A DNA stretch of 64,000 bases from Pseudoxanthomonas composti. GTDB lineage: Bacteria > Pseudomonadota > Gammaproteobacteria > Xanthomonadales > Xanthomonadaceae. A program made the position numbers and the translations under genes. Under the pieces are notes generated by a model that made no database searches, was not told the DNA's origin, and saw only the letters and a program-made list of their open reading frames with translations. Each line of letters starts with the position of its first letter. Position 1 is the first letter of the stretch. Below are positions 24,577 to 56,311 of this stretch, piece by piece. The stretch spans positions 124,001-188,000 of the forward strand of contig NZ_SAWZ01000005.1 in the NCBI RefSeq assembly GCF_004122095.1, given 5' to 3'.

Positions 24577-24700
24577 GCGAGGAGTGAGCGCAGAGGAGTG
24601 AGGAGTGAGCAGAGCGACGGGACGGATCGACCCGACTCGCGCTGACTCGTTCCTCGTTCCTCTCCACTCGTTCCTCTCTCAGTCCTCTCCCTCCCCGCCA
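24577..24700. repeat. GAGGAGTGAG-type repeat after mfd
   Basis: A purine-rich arm at 24577-24609 is identical over 33 bp to 48847-48879. It is followed by a pyrimidine-rich arm (about 24640-24700: CTCGTTCCTC and CTCTCTCAGTCCTCTCC) that is a partial reverse complement. The transcript could fold into a long imperfect hairpin just after the mfd stop. A shared segment around GCAGCGCAGCATC follows here and inside the 48.8-kb copy. Confidence 0.75.
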
Positions 24701-48836: not shown

Positions 48837-48846
48837 AAGCCGAAGA

Positions 48847-49112
48847 GCGAGGAGTGAGCGCAGAGGAGTGAGGAGTGAGTGGAGGCTAGGAGTGAGCGCA
48901 GAGGAGTGAGGAGTGAGTAAAAGCAACGGCGCGTATCGTGCCGCTCTGATTTGCGTCGATCCTCGCAGCGCAGCATCCACCGCTTGCTTCCCCCCACTCC
49001 TCGCCTTAGCGCACTCCCCGCCTTCGCTCACTCCTCACTCCTCTGCGCTCACTCCTAGCCTTTGCTCACTCCTAGCCTTCGCTCACTCCTGGCCTTTGCT
49101 CACTCCTCGCCC
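48847..49112. repeat. GAGGAGTGAG-type repeat with a perfect 34-bp inverted repeat
   Basis: Fills most of the 355 bp between the DUF445 gene and the CheY-like gene. 48884-48917 and 49027-49060 are exact reverse complements over 34 bp, separated by 109 bp. A further 33-bp arm at 48847-48879 is identical to 24577-24609. Three more inverted short units follow to about 49112 (GCTCACTCCT repeats). The transcript could form a long hairpin, or the element is a MITE-like insertion. Confidence 0.8.
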
Positions 49113-49191
49113 TAAAGAATCCCTCGCCCTGGCCGATACGCATCTGAGAGGCCACCGCAGCCGGCGGCACCCATCGACAAGGAGACGCGTC

Positions 49192-49560
49192 ATGTCCACC
49201 CGTCCCACTGTGCTGCTCTGCGACGACTCGCGGGCCCTGCGCATGCTGGCAACGCAGCAGCTGACCGATGCCGGATTCGACGTGGTCGGCGAAGCCGGCA
49301 ACGGTCGCCAGGCCATCGAGCGCTATCGCGAACTTTCGCCCGACCTAGTGCTGATGGACCTGGTGATGCCCGAGTGCGATGGCAAGCAGGGCTTGAGCGG
49401 CATCCTGGCCGCGGATCCGGAGGCGCGCGTGGTGATCCTCAGCTCGCTCGGGGCACAGAGCGACATCGAGGAATGTTTGCGCCTGGGCGCCAAATCCTAT
49501 TTGCAAAAACCCATCGATCCGGCGGACATGGAGCGGATCCTGCTGGGCGTGCTGGCCTGA
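49192..49560 (+). CDS. CheY-like single-domain response regulator
   Basis: 122 residues, receiver only. Acidic pair in LLCDDSRA, phospho-acceptor Asp56 in VLMDLVMPE, Thr/Ser in ILSSLG and Lys in YLQKPI. It has no output domain, so it works through a protein partner. AAGGAGA lies 6 nt before the ATG. The next gene, 43 bp away, encodes an MshEN-repeat/CheX protein whose catalytic motif predicts that it dephosphorylates receivers, making this its probable substrate. Confidence 0.9.
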   Translation: MSTRPTVLLCDDSRALRMLATQQLTDAGFDVVGEAGNGRQAIERYRELSPDLVLMDLVMPECDGKQGLSGILAADPEARVVILSSLGAQSDIEECLRLGAKSYLQKPIDPADMERILLGVLA

Positions 49561-49603
49561 GGCCATCCGCGCTCCACTCCCCTGGCATCGATCGAGGATT
49601 CCC

Positions 49604-50455
49604 ATGGCAGCAAAATTCTTCGGCCAGTTCCTGCTGGAAAAAGGCGTCATCAGCGCCCAGCAGCTGCTGGACGCGCTGGACGCGCAGCGTGCGTCCAATC
49701 CCACCCTGGGCGAGCTGGCCCAGCAGCGCGGCCTGCTGACCGCCGCCCAGGCCAAACGCGTCAACGAGCGGCAGCGCGTGGAGGACCGTCGCTTCGGCGA
49801 TATCGCCGAGGACATGGGCCTGCTGGACAGCACCCAGCTCGGCGAGCTGCTGGCCGCGCAGAAGGCCCAGCGCAAGCTGTTCGGCGAGATCCTGGTGGAA
49901 CAGCACACGCTGGACCGTGCCCGCCTGGAGACCGAGCTGGCTGCCCATCGCCAGGAGCAGGAGGACGCCGCGCGCGCCCTGGGCGAGACCGTCAGCGCCC
50001 ACCCGCTCTCGGACCTGGCCGCCAGCGCCATCAACACCAGCGTGCGGCTGTTCCCGCGCCTGTTCGGCAGCCAGTGCCAGCCGGCGCAGGCGCTGGACTC
50101 ACCGCAGGCGCTTGCGGCCTACCCGGTCGGCGCGCTGGTGCGCATCCAAGCCGACCAGCCGATGGCCGTGGGCCTGGCCTGCACGGCGGACACGGCCACG
50201 CGGCTGGCCACGGCGTTCCTGTCGATCCCGCAGGAAAAATGCGACGACGAACTGGCCCTGGATGCCCTGGGTGAGGTGGTCAACGTGCTGATGGGCTACG
50301 TGGTGCGCGATGCCTTGTCCGACGATGCCCAGTACCGGGCCTTCCCGCCCGAAACCCGCACGCCGCTGGCCCAGGCCATGGGCGCCTCGCCGTGCGCGCT
50401 GGCCATTGGGATGAGCTCCCAGCTGGGCGACTTCGCGCTGCTGGTCTGCCGCTAG
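49604..50455 (+). CDS. Four MshEN-like repeats fused to a CheX phosphatase domain
   Basis: 283 residues. The first 110 hold four tandem repeats of the form FGxxLxxxGxLxxxQLxxxLxxQ: FFGQFLLEKGVISAQQLLDA, then units beginning TLGELAQQRG, RFGDIAEDMG and LFGEILVEQH. These look like the MshEN/GspE-N motif that binds c-di-GMP. The C-terminal half is a CheC/CheX/FliY domain with intact ExxN (Glu224, Asn227) and the Pro 22 residues later (Pro249), so it should dephosphorylate a receiver. GAGGA precedes the ATG. It sits between a CheY-like gene and a hybrid kinase, suggesting c-di-GMP-gated phosphatase activity. The repeat function is inferred. Confidence 0.8.
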   Translation: MAAKFFGQFLLEKGVISAQQLLDALDAQRASNPTLGELAQQRGLLTAAQAKRVNERQRVEDRRFGDIAEDMGLLDSTQLGELLAAQKAQRKLFGEILVEQHTLDRARLETELAAHRQEQEDAARALGETVSAHPLSDLAASAINTSVRLFPRLFGSQCQPAQALDSPQALAAYPVGALVRIQADQPMAVGLACTADTATRLATAFLSIPQEKCDDELALDALGEVVNVLMGYVVRDALSDDAQYRAFPPETRTPLAQAMGASPCALAIGMSSQLGDFALLVCR

Positions 50456-50489
50456 CGCCATTCCGCACGCGCCAACGGCTGCATGAACT

Positions 50490-50525
50490 CGGCTCGCCAA
50501 CAATTCTTGTTGGCGAGCCGTTTTT
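50490..50525 (+). terminator. Intrinsic terminator after the CheX-like gene
   Basis: A perfect 14-bp stem, CGGCTCGCCAACAA (50490-50503) with its complement at 50507-50520, a TTC loop and five T at 50521-50525. This is the clearest intrinsic terminator in the window. It separates the CheY/CheX pair from the hybrid kinase. The remaining 269 bp to 50795 hold no convincing promoter or gene. Confidence 0.92.
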
Positions 50526-50794
50526 GTTGGGGAGGCCTTCACAGTTTTTCGCTCCGGCGTCGGCGTCCACTTCGCTTTCACCCGAGCCGGTTGCAGACTC
50601 GAAACGTGAACGCAGCATGCTGATCCAGCGTGCCGCGGCCGCGACGAAGCACTGCAACGGCAACGTGCCCACCATGGTCAGGCGCCGCTGTGCCGCGGGG
50701 GGGATGCGCGTGGCCTCACCGCCACGGATGGACATGCCTCCCTGCTGCGCACGCAGCACCGGCCATCGGTTGGGACAGGGGAGAAACACAGGTA

Positions 50795-53700
50795 ATGTCC
50801 ACCTCGGACACCACACCCATCCTGGATGGGGTCATGCTGTCCCCGGCCCGCAACGCCGCCTGGCTGCTGGTCGCCGGACTCATCGCGGCGGTGCTGATCG
50901 CCCTGTCGCTGCAGCGGCACAACGTCACCGAACAACAGGACCGCTTCGCCCAGCTCACCGATGACGTGGTGGGCGCCCTGCAACAGCGCATGGAGATGTA
51001 CGAGCACGGCCTGCGCGGCGCGCGCGGCGCGGTGATGACCGCCGGCGGCGAAGACGCCATCCGCGAGCGGTTCGTCGCCTACAGCCGCTCGCGCGATTAT
51101 CCGCGTGAGTTTCCCGGCTCGCGCGGGTTCGGCTACATCCGGCGGGTGCCGCAGGCCGAGGAAGCGGCCTTCGTGGCCCAGGCCCGGGCCGATGGCATCG
51201 CCGATTTCAGCGTGCGCCAGTTCGCGCCGCACCCGGGCGACCGTTACGTCATCCTCTACATCGAACCGCAGGGCCCCAACTCCCCGGCATTAGGGCTGGA
51301 TATCGCCTCCAACCCCGTGCGGCGCGAAGCGGCCGAGCGCGCCGCGCAGAGCGGCCAGGCCGTGCTCACCCATCCCATCGCGCTGTACGAGAACGGCACG
51401 GCGCGCCAGGACTTCCTGTTGCTGCTGCCGGTCTATCGCAACGGCGCGCCCGTTGCCACGCCGGCCGAGCGCATCGCCGCCACGATCGGCTGGACCTATG
51501 CGCCGCTGCGCATCCGCGAAGTGCTGCAGAGCTTCGACGAAGACCACGCCGACTACGCGCTGCGCATCGTCGATGCGGCCAGCCGCGACACCCCGTTCTT
51601 CGAAAGCGGCAGCTTCGCGCCCGCGGGCAAGTCCTCGCGCCTGAAGAACAGCCGCGAGCTGGACGTCTACGGCCGCCGCTGGTTATTGACGGTGCAGGCG
51701 ACCCCGGAGTTCCTGCGCTCGCTCAACCAGATCTCGCCCTGGATCGCGGGCGGCTCGGTGCTGCTGGTGACGCTGCTGCTGTCCGGCCTGGCCTATGCGG
51801 TGGGCATCGGCCGCCAGCGCAGCCAGCAGATCCTGGCGGCGCAGGCGCGCCTGGGGGCCATGGTGCAGAGCTCCAGCGAAGCCATCATCACCGAGGAAGC
51901 CCAGGGCATCATCACCCACTGGAATCCCGCCGCCGAGCGCGCCTTTGGCTATACCGCCGAAGAAGCGGTGGGCCAGTCGATGCAGCGGCTGATCGGCGAA
52001 GGGCTCGCCGAGGCCGGCACGGACGCGGTGCGCGATGAGGGCGGCGCCCGCAAGGTCAGCCTGCGCCACCGCGATGGTCACCGCGCGCGCATGCTCACCA
52101 CCCAGTCGCCGCTGCTGAACCGCCAGGGCCAGCGCGTGGGCACCTCGCATTTCTTCCACGACCTCTCGCGCCAGCTGCAGGCCGAGGAACAGTTCGGGAT
52201 CGTGGTGGAAGCTTCGCCCAGCGCGCTGCTGGTGCTCGATGCCGACAGCGTGATCCAGCAGGCCAACCGGCGCGCCGAGGAACTGTTCGGCCGTCCGCGC
52301 CCGGCCCTGGTCGGCCTGCCGCTCACCAGCCTGCTGCCGACGGACCTGCATGCGGCCCAGCAGCAGGCGATGCAGGAGCTGGTGCAGTCGCCCGACTCGC
52401 CGCCGGTCTCGCTGGGCAGCGATGTCTACATCGCCCGTGAGGACCTGAGCCAGATCCCGGTGGAGATCGGACTGAGCCCGATGCGTGCGGACGGTCATGC
52501 CCAGATCCTGGCGACCATCACCGACATCTCCGAGCGCAAGCGCGCCGAGTACGAGATCCACCAGCTCAACGCCACGCTGGAACAGCAGGTGGCCGAGCGC
52601 ACGCGCCAGCTGGTGGCCACCAGCACCCTGCAGCGCGCGATCACCTCCCATGCCGGCTACGCCATCATCGCCTCGGACAGCGCCGGTCGCATCACCCTGT
52701 TCAACCCCGCCGCTGAAAAGATGCTCGGCTACAGCGCCGCCGAGCTGCTGGGCAGGAAGGGCGTGGACGTGCTGCTGGATCCGGAAGAGCTGCGCGAGCG
52801 CGCCGGCCCGCTGGCGCAGGATCCGGCGCAGCCGATGAACTTCTTCGAGACGGTCGTTTCCGGCGCGGGCACGGGGCGCAGCGTCACCGAGGAGTGGACC
52901 CACATCGCCAAGGACGGGCGGCGCATCCCGCTGCTGTTGACCATCAGCACGCTGCGCGACGAGCACGAGCAGGTGATCGGCTTCCTCGGCATGGGCCTGG
53001 ACCTGACCGAGCGCAAGCAGCACGAGGAAGCCCTGCGCCAGGCGATCAGCGCGGCCGAGGCGGCCAACCGCTCCAAGAGCGATTTCCTGGCCAACATGAG
53101 CCATGAGATCCGCACGCCGATGAACGCCATCCTGGGCATGCTGTACCTGCTCGAACGCGGCGAGCTTTCCCCGCCCGTGCGCGAGATGACCCGCAAGATC
53201 GACATCTCCGCGCGCGCCCTGCTGTCCATCATCAACGACGTGCTGGACTTCTCCAAGATCGAGTCGGGGCGGATCGACCTGGAGAACACCGCCTTCGACC
53301 TGGGCGAACTGCTGGAGAACATCGCCACGCTGATGACCTCGGCGGTCAGCGTCAAGCCGGTGGAAATGGTGGTGGAGGCCCCGCCCGATGGCGCGCGCTG
53401 GCTGCTGGGCGACTCGCTGCGCCTGAGCCAGGTGCTGATCAACCTGGTGGGCAATGCGATCAAGTTCACCGACCGCGGCGAGATCGTGCTGTCGGTGCGC
53501 AAGTTCCGCAGCGAGTCGCCGGGCAAGGTCAAGCTGCTGTTCTCCGTGCGCGATACCGGCATCGGCATCCCCAAGGAAAAGCAGGACCTGATCTTCTCGC
53601 CATTTCATCAGGCCGACACCTCCACCACCCGACGCTTCGGCGGCAGTGGCCTGGGCCTGACCATCAGCCGCCGGCTGGTGGAGCTGATGGGCGGCGAGCT

Positions 53701-55285
53701 GCAGGTCTACAGCGCGCCCGGCCGCGGCAGCGAGTTCTACTTCGCCATCTCCTTCGGGCTGAGCGAGGGCACCGCCCCGGCCGTGTCCACCGAGGATCCC
53801 AAGCGCGTGCTGGTGGTGGACGACCACGACCTGGTGCGCCGCAACCTGGTGCACATCATCGAAGGCTTCGGCTGGAGCGCGGTTGATGCGCCCAGTGCGC
53901 AGGCGGCGCTGGACCTGCTGTCCGAGGCCGATGCCGGCACCAGCCCGTTCGATGCCTACGTGCTGGACTGGCGCATGCCCGGCATGGACGGCATTGCCCT
54001 GGCCAGTGCCCTGCGCGCGCGCCAGGGCAACGGGCGCGAGCCGGTGATCATCATGGTGACCTCCTACGAGCGCAATCTGCTGGACGAGAAGATGCCCGGC
54101 GGCCTGGTCGATGCGGTGCTCACCAAGCCGGCCACCAGTTCCTCCTTGTTCAACGCCCTGGGCGAGGCCATGGGCCGGCGCGAAGCGCCGCGCCTGCGCG
54201 GCCCGGACAGCAAGCGCCTGGGCGGGCTGCGCCTGCTGGTGGTCGATGACAGCGAGTACAACCGCGAGGTGGCCCAGCGCATCCTGGAGAGCGAGGGCGC
54301 CAGCGCCGAGCTGGCCGAGAACGGCGAGGAAGCGATCAAGCTGATCGAGACCGATCCGTCGCGCTTCGACGTGGTGCTGATGGACGTGCAGATGCCGGTG
54401 ATGGATGGCTACCAGGCCACGCGCGTGATCCGCGCGTCGCCGCAGATGAGCCACCTGCCGGTGATCGCGCTGACCGCCGGCGCCTTCCGCCAGCAACAGG
54501 ACGCGGCCGTGGCCAGCGGCATGAGCGGCTTTGTGGCCAAGCCCTTCGACGTGCAGCAGCTGATCGAGGCGATCCAGCGGCTGGCCCCGGCGCTGAGCTC
54601 GAGCTCGCGGCTGGACCCCACCGCGGAGATCACCGCCGCGGTGCCGGCCATCACCGTGCATGCGCCGGACCTGTCGGACACGCCGGTGCTGGACACCCAG
54701 CGCGGCCTTGAGCAATGGGGCGAGGAAGCTCCCTACAAGCGCTACCTGTTGCGGTTCCTGCGTGACTATCACGCCCCGGCCCCGATCCTGCGCCAGCTGG
54801 TCCAGCAGGGAGATCGATCCCCCGCGATCTCCTTCGTGCACAAGATGCGTGGCGCCACCGCCTCCCTGGCCCTGCTGCGGCTCAGCCGCGTGGCGGGCCG
54901 GATCGAGGAGGCGCTGTATGGCGACAACGACGTCTCCGAGCTGCTGGATGTGCTGGAGCACGCCACCGCGCAGGCGCACGCGGCCATCGCCGCCTACGCC
55001 GATGGGACGGAGCTGGAGGAACCGGGTGAGGCCTCCGGCGACTGGGTCGCGGCCCTGTCGCCGGAGGCGCTGACCGCACTGCAGCAACTGCTGCACGCCC
55101 TGGACAGCGACGACCCGGCGGAAATGGAAGCGCAGCTGCATGGCCTGCACGGCTTGCTCCCGGCGTTGGTCCTGGAAACGCTGCACGCCCAGGTCGACGC
55201 CTTCGCCTTCCGCGAGGCGGAAGCCGATGTGCGGCAATGGATTGCCCAGCACGACGGCACCGCCCCGCCCGGACACGGGCGCTAG
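50795..55285 (+). CDS. CHASE-PAS hybrid histidine kinase with two receivers and HPt
   Basis: 1496 residues. Helix (about 20-40), periplasmic CHASE domain (about 68-295), helix (about 315-338), three PAS domains (352-462, 467-578, 612-742), HisKA with His770 in NMSHEIRTPMNA, HATPase_c (870-985, GSGLGLTISR), receiver 1 with Asp1058, receiver 2 with Asp1197, and an HPt domain with His1349 in HKMRGATAS. All phosphorelay residues are present. CHASE suggests a small extracellular ligand. It is 15 bp before the HD-GYP gene, an RpfC/RpfG-like arrangement. ATG 50795 has GGGGAG upstream. Confidence 0.93.
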   Translation: MSTSDTTPILDGVMLSPARNAAWLLVAGLIAAVLIALSLQRHNVTEQQDRFAQLTDDVVGALQQRMEMYEHGLRGARGAVMTAGGEDAIRERFVAYSRSRDYPREFPGSRGFGYIRRVPQAEEAAFVAQARADGIADFSVRQFAPHPGDRYVILYIEPQGPNSPALGLDIASNPVRREAAERAAQSGQAVLTHPIALYENGTARQDFLLLLPVYRNGAPVATPAERIAATIGWTYAPLRIREVLQSFDEDHADYALRIVDAASRDTPFFESGSFAPAGKSSRLKNSRELDVYGRRWLLTVQATPEFLRSLNQISPWIAGGSVLLVTLLLSGLAYAVGIGRQRSQQILAAQARLGAMVQSSSEAIITEEAQGIITHWNPAAERAFGYTAEEAVGQSMQRLIGEGLAEAGTDAVRDEGGARKVSLRHRDGHRARMLTTQSPLLNRQGQRVGTSHFFHDLSRQLQAEEQFGIVVEASPSALLVLDADSVIQQANRRAEELFGRPRPALVGLPLTSLLPTDLHAAQQQAMQELVQSPDSPPVSLGSDVYIAREDLSQIPVEIGLSPMRADGHAQILATITDISERKRAEYEIHQLNATLEQQVAERTRQLVATSTLQRAITSHAGYAIIASDSAGRITLFNPAAEKMLGYSAAELLGRKGVDVLLDPEELRERAGPLAQDPAQPMNFFETVVSGAGTGRSVTEEWTHIAKDGRRIPLLLTISTLRDEHEQVIGFLGMGLDLTERKQHEEALRQAISAAEAANRSKSDFLANMSHEIRTPMNAILGMLYLLERGELSPPVREMTRKIDISARALLSIINDVLDFSKIESGRIDLENTAFDLGELLENIATLMTSAVSVKPVEMVVEAPPDGARWLLGDSLRLSQVLINLVGNAIKFTDRGEIVLSVRKFRSESPGKVKLLFSVRDTGIGIPKEKQDLIFSPFHQADTSTTRRFGGSGLGLTISRRLVELMGGELQVYSAPGRGSEFYFAISFGLSEGTAPAVSTEDPKRVLVVDDHDLVRRNLVHIIEGFGWSAVDAPSAQAALDLLSEADAGTSPFDAYVLDWRMPGMDGIALASALRARQGNGREPVIIMVTSYERNLLDEKMPGGLVDAVLTKPATSSSLFNALGEAMGRREAPRLRGPDSKRLGGLRLLVVDDSEYNREVAQRILESEGASAELAENGEEAIKLIETDPSRFDVVLMDVQMPVMDGYQATRVIRASPQMSHLPVIALTAGAFRQQQDAAVASGMSGFVAKPFDVQQLIEAIQRLAPALSSSSRLDPTAEITAAVPAITVHAPDLSDTPVLDTQRGLEQWGEEAPYKRYLLRFLRDYHAPAPILRQLVQQGDRSPAISFVHKMRGATASLALLRLSRVAGRIEEALYGDNDVSELLDVLEHATAQAHAAIAAYADGTELEEPGEASGDWVAALSPEALTALQQLLHALDSDDPAEMEAQLHGLHGLLPALVLETLHAQVDAFAFREAEADVRQWIAQHDGTAPPGHGR

Positions 55286-55300
55286 GAAAGACGAGGGAAC

Positions 55301-56311
55301 ATGGCCCAGCGCCCCATCCTGTGCGTGGATGACGAACCCAACAACCTGGCGTTGCTGCGCCAGATCCTCCAGGGCGACCATCGCCTGGTGTTCGCCCGCA
55401 ACGGCGGCGAAGCCCTGGCGGCGGTGGCCAAGCACGACCCGGCCCTGATCTTGATGGACGTGGAGATGCCGGACATGGACGGCTACAGCGTGGCCATCAA
55501 GCTCAAGCAGGACCCGCGCACGGCGCGCATCCCGGTGATCTTCGTCACCGCCCTGAACAAGGACACCGACGAGCGCGTGGGCTTCGAGGCAGGCGGCGTG
55601 GATTACCTCACCAAACCGGTGTCGGCCTACGTGCTGCGCGCACGCGTGCGCACCCATCTGTCGCTGGTGCAGGCCTCGGCCCTGGAGCAGAGCTATCGCG
55701 ACGCGATCCAGATGCTGTCCATCGCCGGCCACTACAACGATAGCGACACCGGCAGCCATGTCTGGCGCATCGGCGCCTACGCGCGTGCGCTGGCGCTTGC
55801 GCTGGGCTGGGACGAGCAGCGCGCCGCCCTGCTGGAACAGGCCGCGCCGCTGCACGACACCGGCAAGATCGGCATTCCCGACGCGGTGCTCAAAAAACCC
55901 GGCCCGCTCACCCCAGAGGAATGGGTGGTGATGCGCACGCATCCCTCCATCGGCCACAAGATCCTCAGCCAGTCAGCCGCTCCGCTGTTCCAGCTGGCGG
56001 CGGAGATCTCGCTGAACCACCATGAGCGCTGGGACGGCAGCGGCTACCCCAACGGGCTGGCTGGCGCGGCCATCCCCGAGTCGGCCCGGATCATCGCGGT
56101 GGTGGACGTGTTCGACGCGCTCAGCGTGCGCCGCCCGTACAAGGAGCCCTGGCCGCTGGACAAGGTCCTGCAGACCCTGGACGAGGGCGCAGGCACCCAC
56201 CTGGACGCACGTATGGTGCGGACCTTCCACGACATCCTGCCGCGCATCCTGGAGCTGAAGGCCTACTGGGACGCGCGCGAGCAGTCCGAGGCGAACCCGC
56301 TGCCACAGTAA
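55301..56311 (+). CDS. REC-HD-GYP cyclic-di-GMP phosphodiesterase
   Basis: 336 residues. Receiver (Asp53 in LILMDVEMPDMDG), then HD-GYP with HDTGKIGIPD (His185-Asp186) and HHERWDGSGYPNG (GYP at 248-250). Degrades c-di-GMP when phosphorylated, like RpfG of Xanthomonas. The kinase next to it is the likely phosphodonor. AGGGAAC precedes the ATG. Although the layout resembles RpfCG, no rpfF is here and the kinase has CHASE and PAS domains instead of the RpfC sensor. Confidence 0.92.
   Translation: MAQRPILCVDDEPNNLALLRQILQGDHRLVFARNGGEALAAVAKHDPALILMDVEMPDMDGYSVAIKLKQDPRTARIPVIFVTALNKDTDERVGFEAGGVDYLTKPVSAYVLRARVRTHLSLVQASALEQSYRDAIQMLSIAGHYNDSDTGSHVWRIGAYARALALALGWDEQRAALLEQAAPLHDTGKIGIPDAVLKKPGPLTPEEWVVMRTHPSIGHKILSQSAAPLFQLAAEISLNHHERWDGSGYPNGLAGAAIPESARIIAVVDVFDALSVRRPYKEPWPLDKVLQTLDEGAGTHLDARMVRTFHDILPRILELKAYWDAREQSEANPLPQ

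Follow-up and report, generated by a model that had tools for sequence, protein, structure and literature searches.

A conserved gene pair of a CheY-like receiver and an MshEN-CheX fusion in Xanthomonadaceae, and its likely link to flagella

Introduction

What does a CheX-type phosphatase do when it is fused to repeats resembling the c-di-GMP-binding unit MshEN, and with which of its neighbours does it work? The question is raised by a 64,000-nucleotide stretch of the Pseudoxanthomonas composti genome (contig NZ_SAWZ01000005.1; hereafter the window, meaning the whole stretch analysed), in which such a fusion gene is preceded by a receiver-only gene and followed by genes for a hybrid kinase and an HD-GYP protein. 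The initial annotation of the window read these four genes as a single cassette, in which c-di-GMP sets phosphatase activity towards the receiver while the HD-GYP protein sets c-di-GMP, closing a loop. The pairing of MshEN with CheX was already in print in 2016: a passage of Wang et al., 2016 (PMC5013675) lists the phosphatase CheX among MshEN-associated domains, and this was the only place in the open-access literature where we found the two named together. Our search of the same literature found no functional study of a protein combining them. What is new here is a defined two-gene unit and the probable link of that pair to flagella.

Results

Layout of the locus

All four reading frames are present, and family scans bear out the domains first named for them (Table 1), with three PAS and two REC stretches in the kinase. 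The fusion gene starts 46 bases past the receiver stop. The HD-GYP gene begins 15 bases 3′ of the kinase gene, and these two genes are probably one unit of their own. In the genome to which the window belongs, the fusion protein is the single match to the CheX family PF13690.

Table 1. Features of the locus, in window coordinates.
Feature	Position	Strand	Basis
Receiver-only (CheY-like) response regulator, 121 aa	49192..49557	+	PF00072, E 3.9e-26
MshEN-repeat x4 - CheX fusion, 283 aa	49604..50455	+	family profiles, fold model, PDB profile match
Four-repeat array of the fusion, residues about 5-116	49616..49951	+	exact 29-residue period, alignment, motif mapping
CheX domain of the fusion, residues about 174-283	50123..50452	+	PF13690 at 176-237, Foldseek, alignments
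Terminator-like hairpin, 14 pairs, loop 3, then TTTTTG	50490..50520	+	terminator scan
CHASE-PASx3-HisKA-HATPase-REC-REC-Hpt hybrid kinase	50795..55285	+	domain scan; neighbour outside the conserved unit
REC-HD-GYP protein	55301..56311	+	PF00072 and PF13487; neighbour only

A receiver and an MshEN-CheX fusion form a conserved pair

In each of the 28 full-length loci (the window, L010, 21 compared relatives, L074, L075, L076, L079 and L116), the gene immediately 5′ of the fusion gene encodes the receiver. Five of these loci lie outside the family, where the fusion is about 26-37% identical. Receiver and fusion are thus a real conserved two-gene unit. The receiver consists of that domain alone and carries the DD, D, S/T and K phosphorylation residues of a stand-alone CheY-like protein. 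An alignment of the 28 receivers of the pair shows acceptor Asp and Lys-Pro in every one and DD(S) in 27, with the caveat that the receiver at L079:10088-10402 can be read in frame only over its second half, its N-terminal part being out of frame in the assembly. Two receivers in L077, a fetched part of the genome's chemotaxis cluster, are only 32% and 27% identical to it, and one of these adjoins CheZ; the receiver of the pair is therefore a second CheY-like protein and not the standard CheY. Since the pairing is conserved, this receiver is the natural candidate substrate of CheX, and to that extent its proposed role as phosphatase substrate is upheld by gene order.

The kinase and HD-GYP genes lie outside the pair

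The larger proposal, in which the HD-GYP protein would set c-di-GMP for the MshEN-CheX protein and all four genes would be one cassette, draws on their adjacency on the same strand in this genome and on a G+C content that gives no foreign sign for the kinase and HD-GYP genes. It fares poorly elsewhere. In the 21 relatives compared, the pair never has either gene beside it (0/21), and the sole kinase match there is an unrelated protein of 31% identity lying 3.8 kb upstream in L033. Some of these loci have a short 3′ flank (L004 and L040 about 1.5 kb, L044 2.2 kb), but a kinase placed as in the window would start 340 bases after the fusion gene. In L031, from the same genus, a convergent RlmL gene follows the pair after about 15 bases and there is no kinase or HD-GYP gene. 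A search of five other genomes of the genus gave no match to the HD-GYP protein at E<=1e-60. In addition, we found five terminator-like sites in an 8-kb region (shuffled sequences gave a mean of 2.2, sd 1.5), and the one with the longest stem is the hairpin of Table 1, which separates the fusion gene from the kinase and is the probable end of the two-gene unit. Because the kinase and HD-GYP genes stand behind this hairpin and adjoin the pair in none of the relatives, the closed loop is unsupported, and we regard the four-gene cassette as highly improbable and have rejected it. A diffusible messenger could nonetheless link the HD-GYP protein to the fusion without synteny.

The C-terminal domain is a divergent CheX

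The C-terminal part of the fusion scores 25.1 bits against PF13690, just below the Pfam cut-off of 27, and the distant homologue in L075 scores 34.0 bits, above it. An AlphaFold2 model of the fusion built from eight sequences (mean pLDDT 85.8, pTM 0.64) gave CheX structures as the top-ranked Foldseek matches, the best being 3hm4_B (E 3.0e-7, target-normalised TM 0.71), followed by others of the family (1squ, 1xko and 3hzh, the last a CheX-CheY complex); a profile of 14 homologues (alignment A4) also matched 3hm4 at E 1.2e-5. The fusion shares with these proteins the fold and the motif D220-x3-E224-x2-N227 with P248-P249, so that both the ExxN catalytic pair and the Pro at +22 from the Asn are intact, as first read from the sequence. 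All 23 rows of alignment A1 and all 14 of A4, two alignments with some rows in common, carry D220, E224, N227, P248 and P249. It differs from the CheX structures in its divergence (14-18% identity) and in being fused to a sensor-like array and, in the window, paired with its own receiver gene and not placed in a che operon.

It might be argued that such a domain works as an adaptor in the manner of CheC or FliM, binding the phosphorylated receiver as a sink or as a link to the motor, and has little phosphatase activity. The PF13690 score under the Pfam cut-off and the presence of CheC, FliY and FliM middle domains among the weaker Foldseek matches lean that way, but the best structural matches are to CheX, and E224 and N227, the residues that CheX uses, are invariant together with P249, which makes an adaptor improbable.

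The repeat array has an MshEN-type fold and one near-canonical half-site

The N-terminal array repeats with a period of exactly 29 residues (G7, G36, G65 and G94) and belongs to the MshEN family by profile and by the predicted fold of its tandem helical motif. The fusion scores 62.9 bits against NCBIfam NF053729 (cyclic di-GMP-binding, MshE-related; cut-off 38). Structure prediction, one of the checks proposed at the outset, recovered V. cholerae MshE: chain B of 5htl superposed at 0.8 A over 56 columns with 34% identity, although E was only 0.15, and chain A was a poor Foldseek match. The A4 profile run against PDB sequences was stronger, finding PilF 6f8l at E 6e-11 and 5htl at E 1.5e-5. The array thus resembles MshEN (T2SSE_N) in its 29-residue-period helical repeat, its Gly/Gln framework and its predicted fold, but has four repeats where MshE has two, and CheX as its effector in place of an ATPase.

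The ligand positions are less well kept. Of the four FG...Q repeats originally described, only 1 and 3 show the full pattern: in repeat 2 the FG is replaced by LG, and repeat 4 carries His at both the Gln and the second Gly position. Only repeat 3 (residues 63-86) is near-canonical and closest to an MshEN half-site, with R63, F64, G65, G72, L79, L83 and Q86 at the ligand positions and Phe for Leu10 as its sole deviation; its Arg63, Gly65 and Gln86, like Gln28 and Gln57, are unchanged in all 23 rows of A1. The other three repeats of the window protein lack the Arg. In repeat 1 a Phe replaces it in 23/23 homologues; repeat 2 has Ala50 (23/23) and Asn54 (22/23) where ligand-contacting Leu would be expected; and repeat 4 is without the Arg in 22/23 and has His for Gln in 19/23. 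Alignment of the ligand residues, a further check named in the initial annotation, therefore came out in favour of repeat 3 and against repeats 1, 2 and 4.

When the 24-residue relaxed MshEN motif of Wang et al., 2016 is applied as a strict pattern, two repeats of MshE pass, whereas in the window protein none passes in full and repeat 3 comes nearest. Among 27 distinct homologues, one repeat passes in 10, always repeat 3, and two adjacent repeats pass in none; 22 of the 27 pass once if the two mid hydrophobic positions are left out. Counted over 53 positions, repeat pair 1-2 has 17 residues in common with MshE, pair 2-3 has 19 and pair 3-4 has 16. The published description of c-di-GMP-binding MshEN calls for two adjacent motifs with R, L, G, G, L, L and Q, and this is not what the array contains: judged by sequence, its fold is MshEN-type and the complete two-motif site is absent. 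Since repeat 3 alone is near-canonical and none of the 27 homologues has two passing repeats, we put c-di-GMP binding by the array no higher than plausible.

Distribution

A search for the combined architecture across the family, also proposed at the outset, gave matches to the fusion at E<=1e-3 in 22 of 149 genomes, 21 of them full length. The remaining match (G120/L030, in a genome with FliM) was dropped: it covers residues 25-237 at 25% identity within an 875-residue frame and bears no close resemblance to the fusion. At the level of the class, 274 genomes yielded 107 matches at E<=1e-3, of which only five, our own genome included, span repeats and CheX together; the others are, judging by their spans, repeat regions of other proteins. 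A second profile found seven full-length matches in 369 genomes of the class and two in 398 of the phylum, the two sets overlapping, and a search of plasmids gave no match. In G593/L117 only the repeat half was matched and no receiver was found nearby; the 287-residue protein there (L117:7571-8431) resembles the repeats in its first half (33%) and has a different C-terminal half. Short proteins or frames of about 125-165 residues in L082-L088 and L092, from genomes of another family of the phylum, match the four-repeat half and have no CheX.

Association with flagella and chemotaxis

FliM is present in 20 of 21 family genomes with the fusion and in 54 of 128 without it (Fisher p 2.4e-6), the sole exception among the former being G094, which is 75% complete. 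Counted by genus the figures are 11/11 and 19/43 (p 5.7e-4). Within genera the association gave p 0.21, or 0.048 when the genus of G094 is left out, and since the within-genera test is not significant, shared ancestry may account for part of the link. The pair is far from universal among swimmers, being absent from 54 of 74 flagellate genomes. Outside the family, FliM was found in all four pair-bearing genomes tested (G820 was left out). We considered whether the fusion stands in for CheZ and rejected this: CheZ occurs in 19 of 21 fusion-bearing genomes, so it is not replaced. CheA, present in 148 of 149 genomes, is uninformative for co-occurrence.

Gene neighbourhoods add one case. In three genomes of a single distant genus (G366, G250 and G420) the pair is convergent to KfrA_N-DUF2802-CheW-CheW-ParA genes, an order assigned by Pfam in L075 only and seen again in L076 and L079; we count these three as one evolutionary case. 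The same order is found at the end of the Pseudomonas flagellar chemotaxis cluster. Within Xanthomonadaceae, no flagellar or chemotaxis gene was seen next to the pair among 10 + 3 scanned neighbours. The original remark that no chemotaxis genes lie nearby accordingly holds for the scanned proteins of the window but not for this distant genus, where CheW and ParA genes are close to the pair. Neighbours in Xanthomonadaceae are mostly unrelated housekeeping genes, with exceptions in two loci: in L008 a MASE1-GGDEF diguanylate cyclase gene (L008:5817-7415) lies directly upstream of the receiver gene, and in L043 a cyclase gene neighbours the pair.

Discussion

The fusion, its pairing with a receiver, the predicted folds, the intact receiver and CheX motifs and the family-level association with FliM are observed. 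On this basis we tentatively favour, while giving it somewhat less than an even chance, a reading in which the pair serves as an accessory switch of the CheY type, with a CheX tuned by the repeats and a flagellar output, beside the ordinary CheY and CheZ. The receiver would be phosphorylated by a kinase encoded elsewhere, CheA being the likeliest, and the CheX domain would strip off the phosphate through E224 and N227, as its invariant catalytic motif suggests. The proposed input of the four repeats is a nucleotide, c-di-GMP most likely, which would be sensed at the half-site of repeat 3 in concert with repeat 4, repeat 2 or a second protomer and would change the rate of the CheX phosphatase. 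An output in flagellar behaviour, alongside standard CheY/CheZ, is suggested by the co-occurrence and by the one gene neighbourhood.

The more specific version, a second-messenger-gated CheY phosphatase in which one half-site per chain senses c-di-GMP and sets the CheX rate on a dedicated second CheY, is rather more doubtful. As each chain offers a single good half-site, a ligand common to two chains is a natural idea, and c-di-GMP would then perhaps span two protomers and drive their dimerisation. Equally doubtful is that the array no longer binds c-di-GMP and has become a docking or dimerisation arm, with a partner protein as input and CheX still dephosphorylating the receiver. This would fit the lack of two adjacent motif-passing repeats in all 27 homologues and the consistent degeneracy of repeat 2, and according to a passage of Wang et al., 2016 (PMC5013675) such changes cost the Xanthomonas homologue GspE/XpsE its binding. 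Against it, Gln28, Gln57, Gln86, the four motif glycines and Arg63, all at positions that contact the ligand in MshE, are invariant in A1; XpsE has lost far more contact positions than the fusion array; and elsewhere the same paper suggests that perfect conservation is possibly not required.

If CheX is indeed tuned by the messenger and acts on a dedicated receiver, control would sit at the step of dephosphorylation, and flagellate bacteria would gain a route from c-di-GMP to the motor through that step. Routes known to lead from c-di-GMP to the flagellum have, to our knowledge, the motor, transcription or CheY-like proteins as their targets. In the Cle proteins of Caulobacter the nucleotide binds the CheY-like protein itself, whereas in the model proposed here c-di-GMP would act on the phosphatase. 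Cle proteins, described in one report (PMC5677366) as c-di-GMP-responsive CheY-like motor regulators, would nevertheless resemble the pair in joining c-di-GMP, a CheY-like protein and the motor. A CheX-family protein of another flagellate gammaproteobacterium, V. cholerae VC0377, may likewise bear on motility, being hit in a motility suppressor according to a passage in PMC8789113. That the unit is conserved and consists of two genes makes a functional test of MshEN-CheX simple.

Finally, the region upstream of the receiver gene has features of its own. Two GGAGTGAG-type repeat arrays in opposite orientation lie at 48845-48917 and 48995-49111, and the RNA fold of 48840-49191 reaches -184.7 kcal/mol (z -10.0). 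The window contains 15 copies of GGAGTGAG where 2.07 would be expected, some of them near 24581-24609, and among the 117 loci fetched, arrays of this type are confined to those of the window's own genome.
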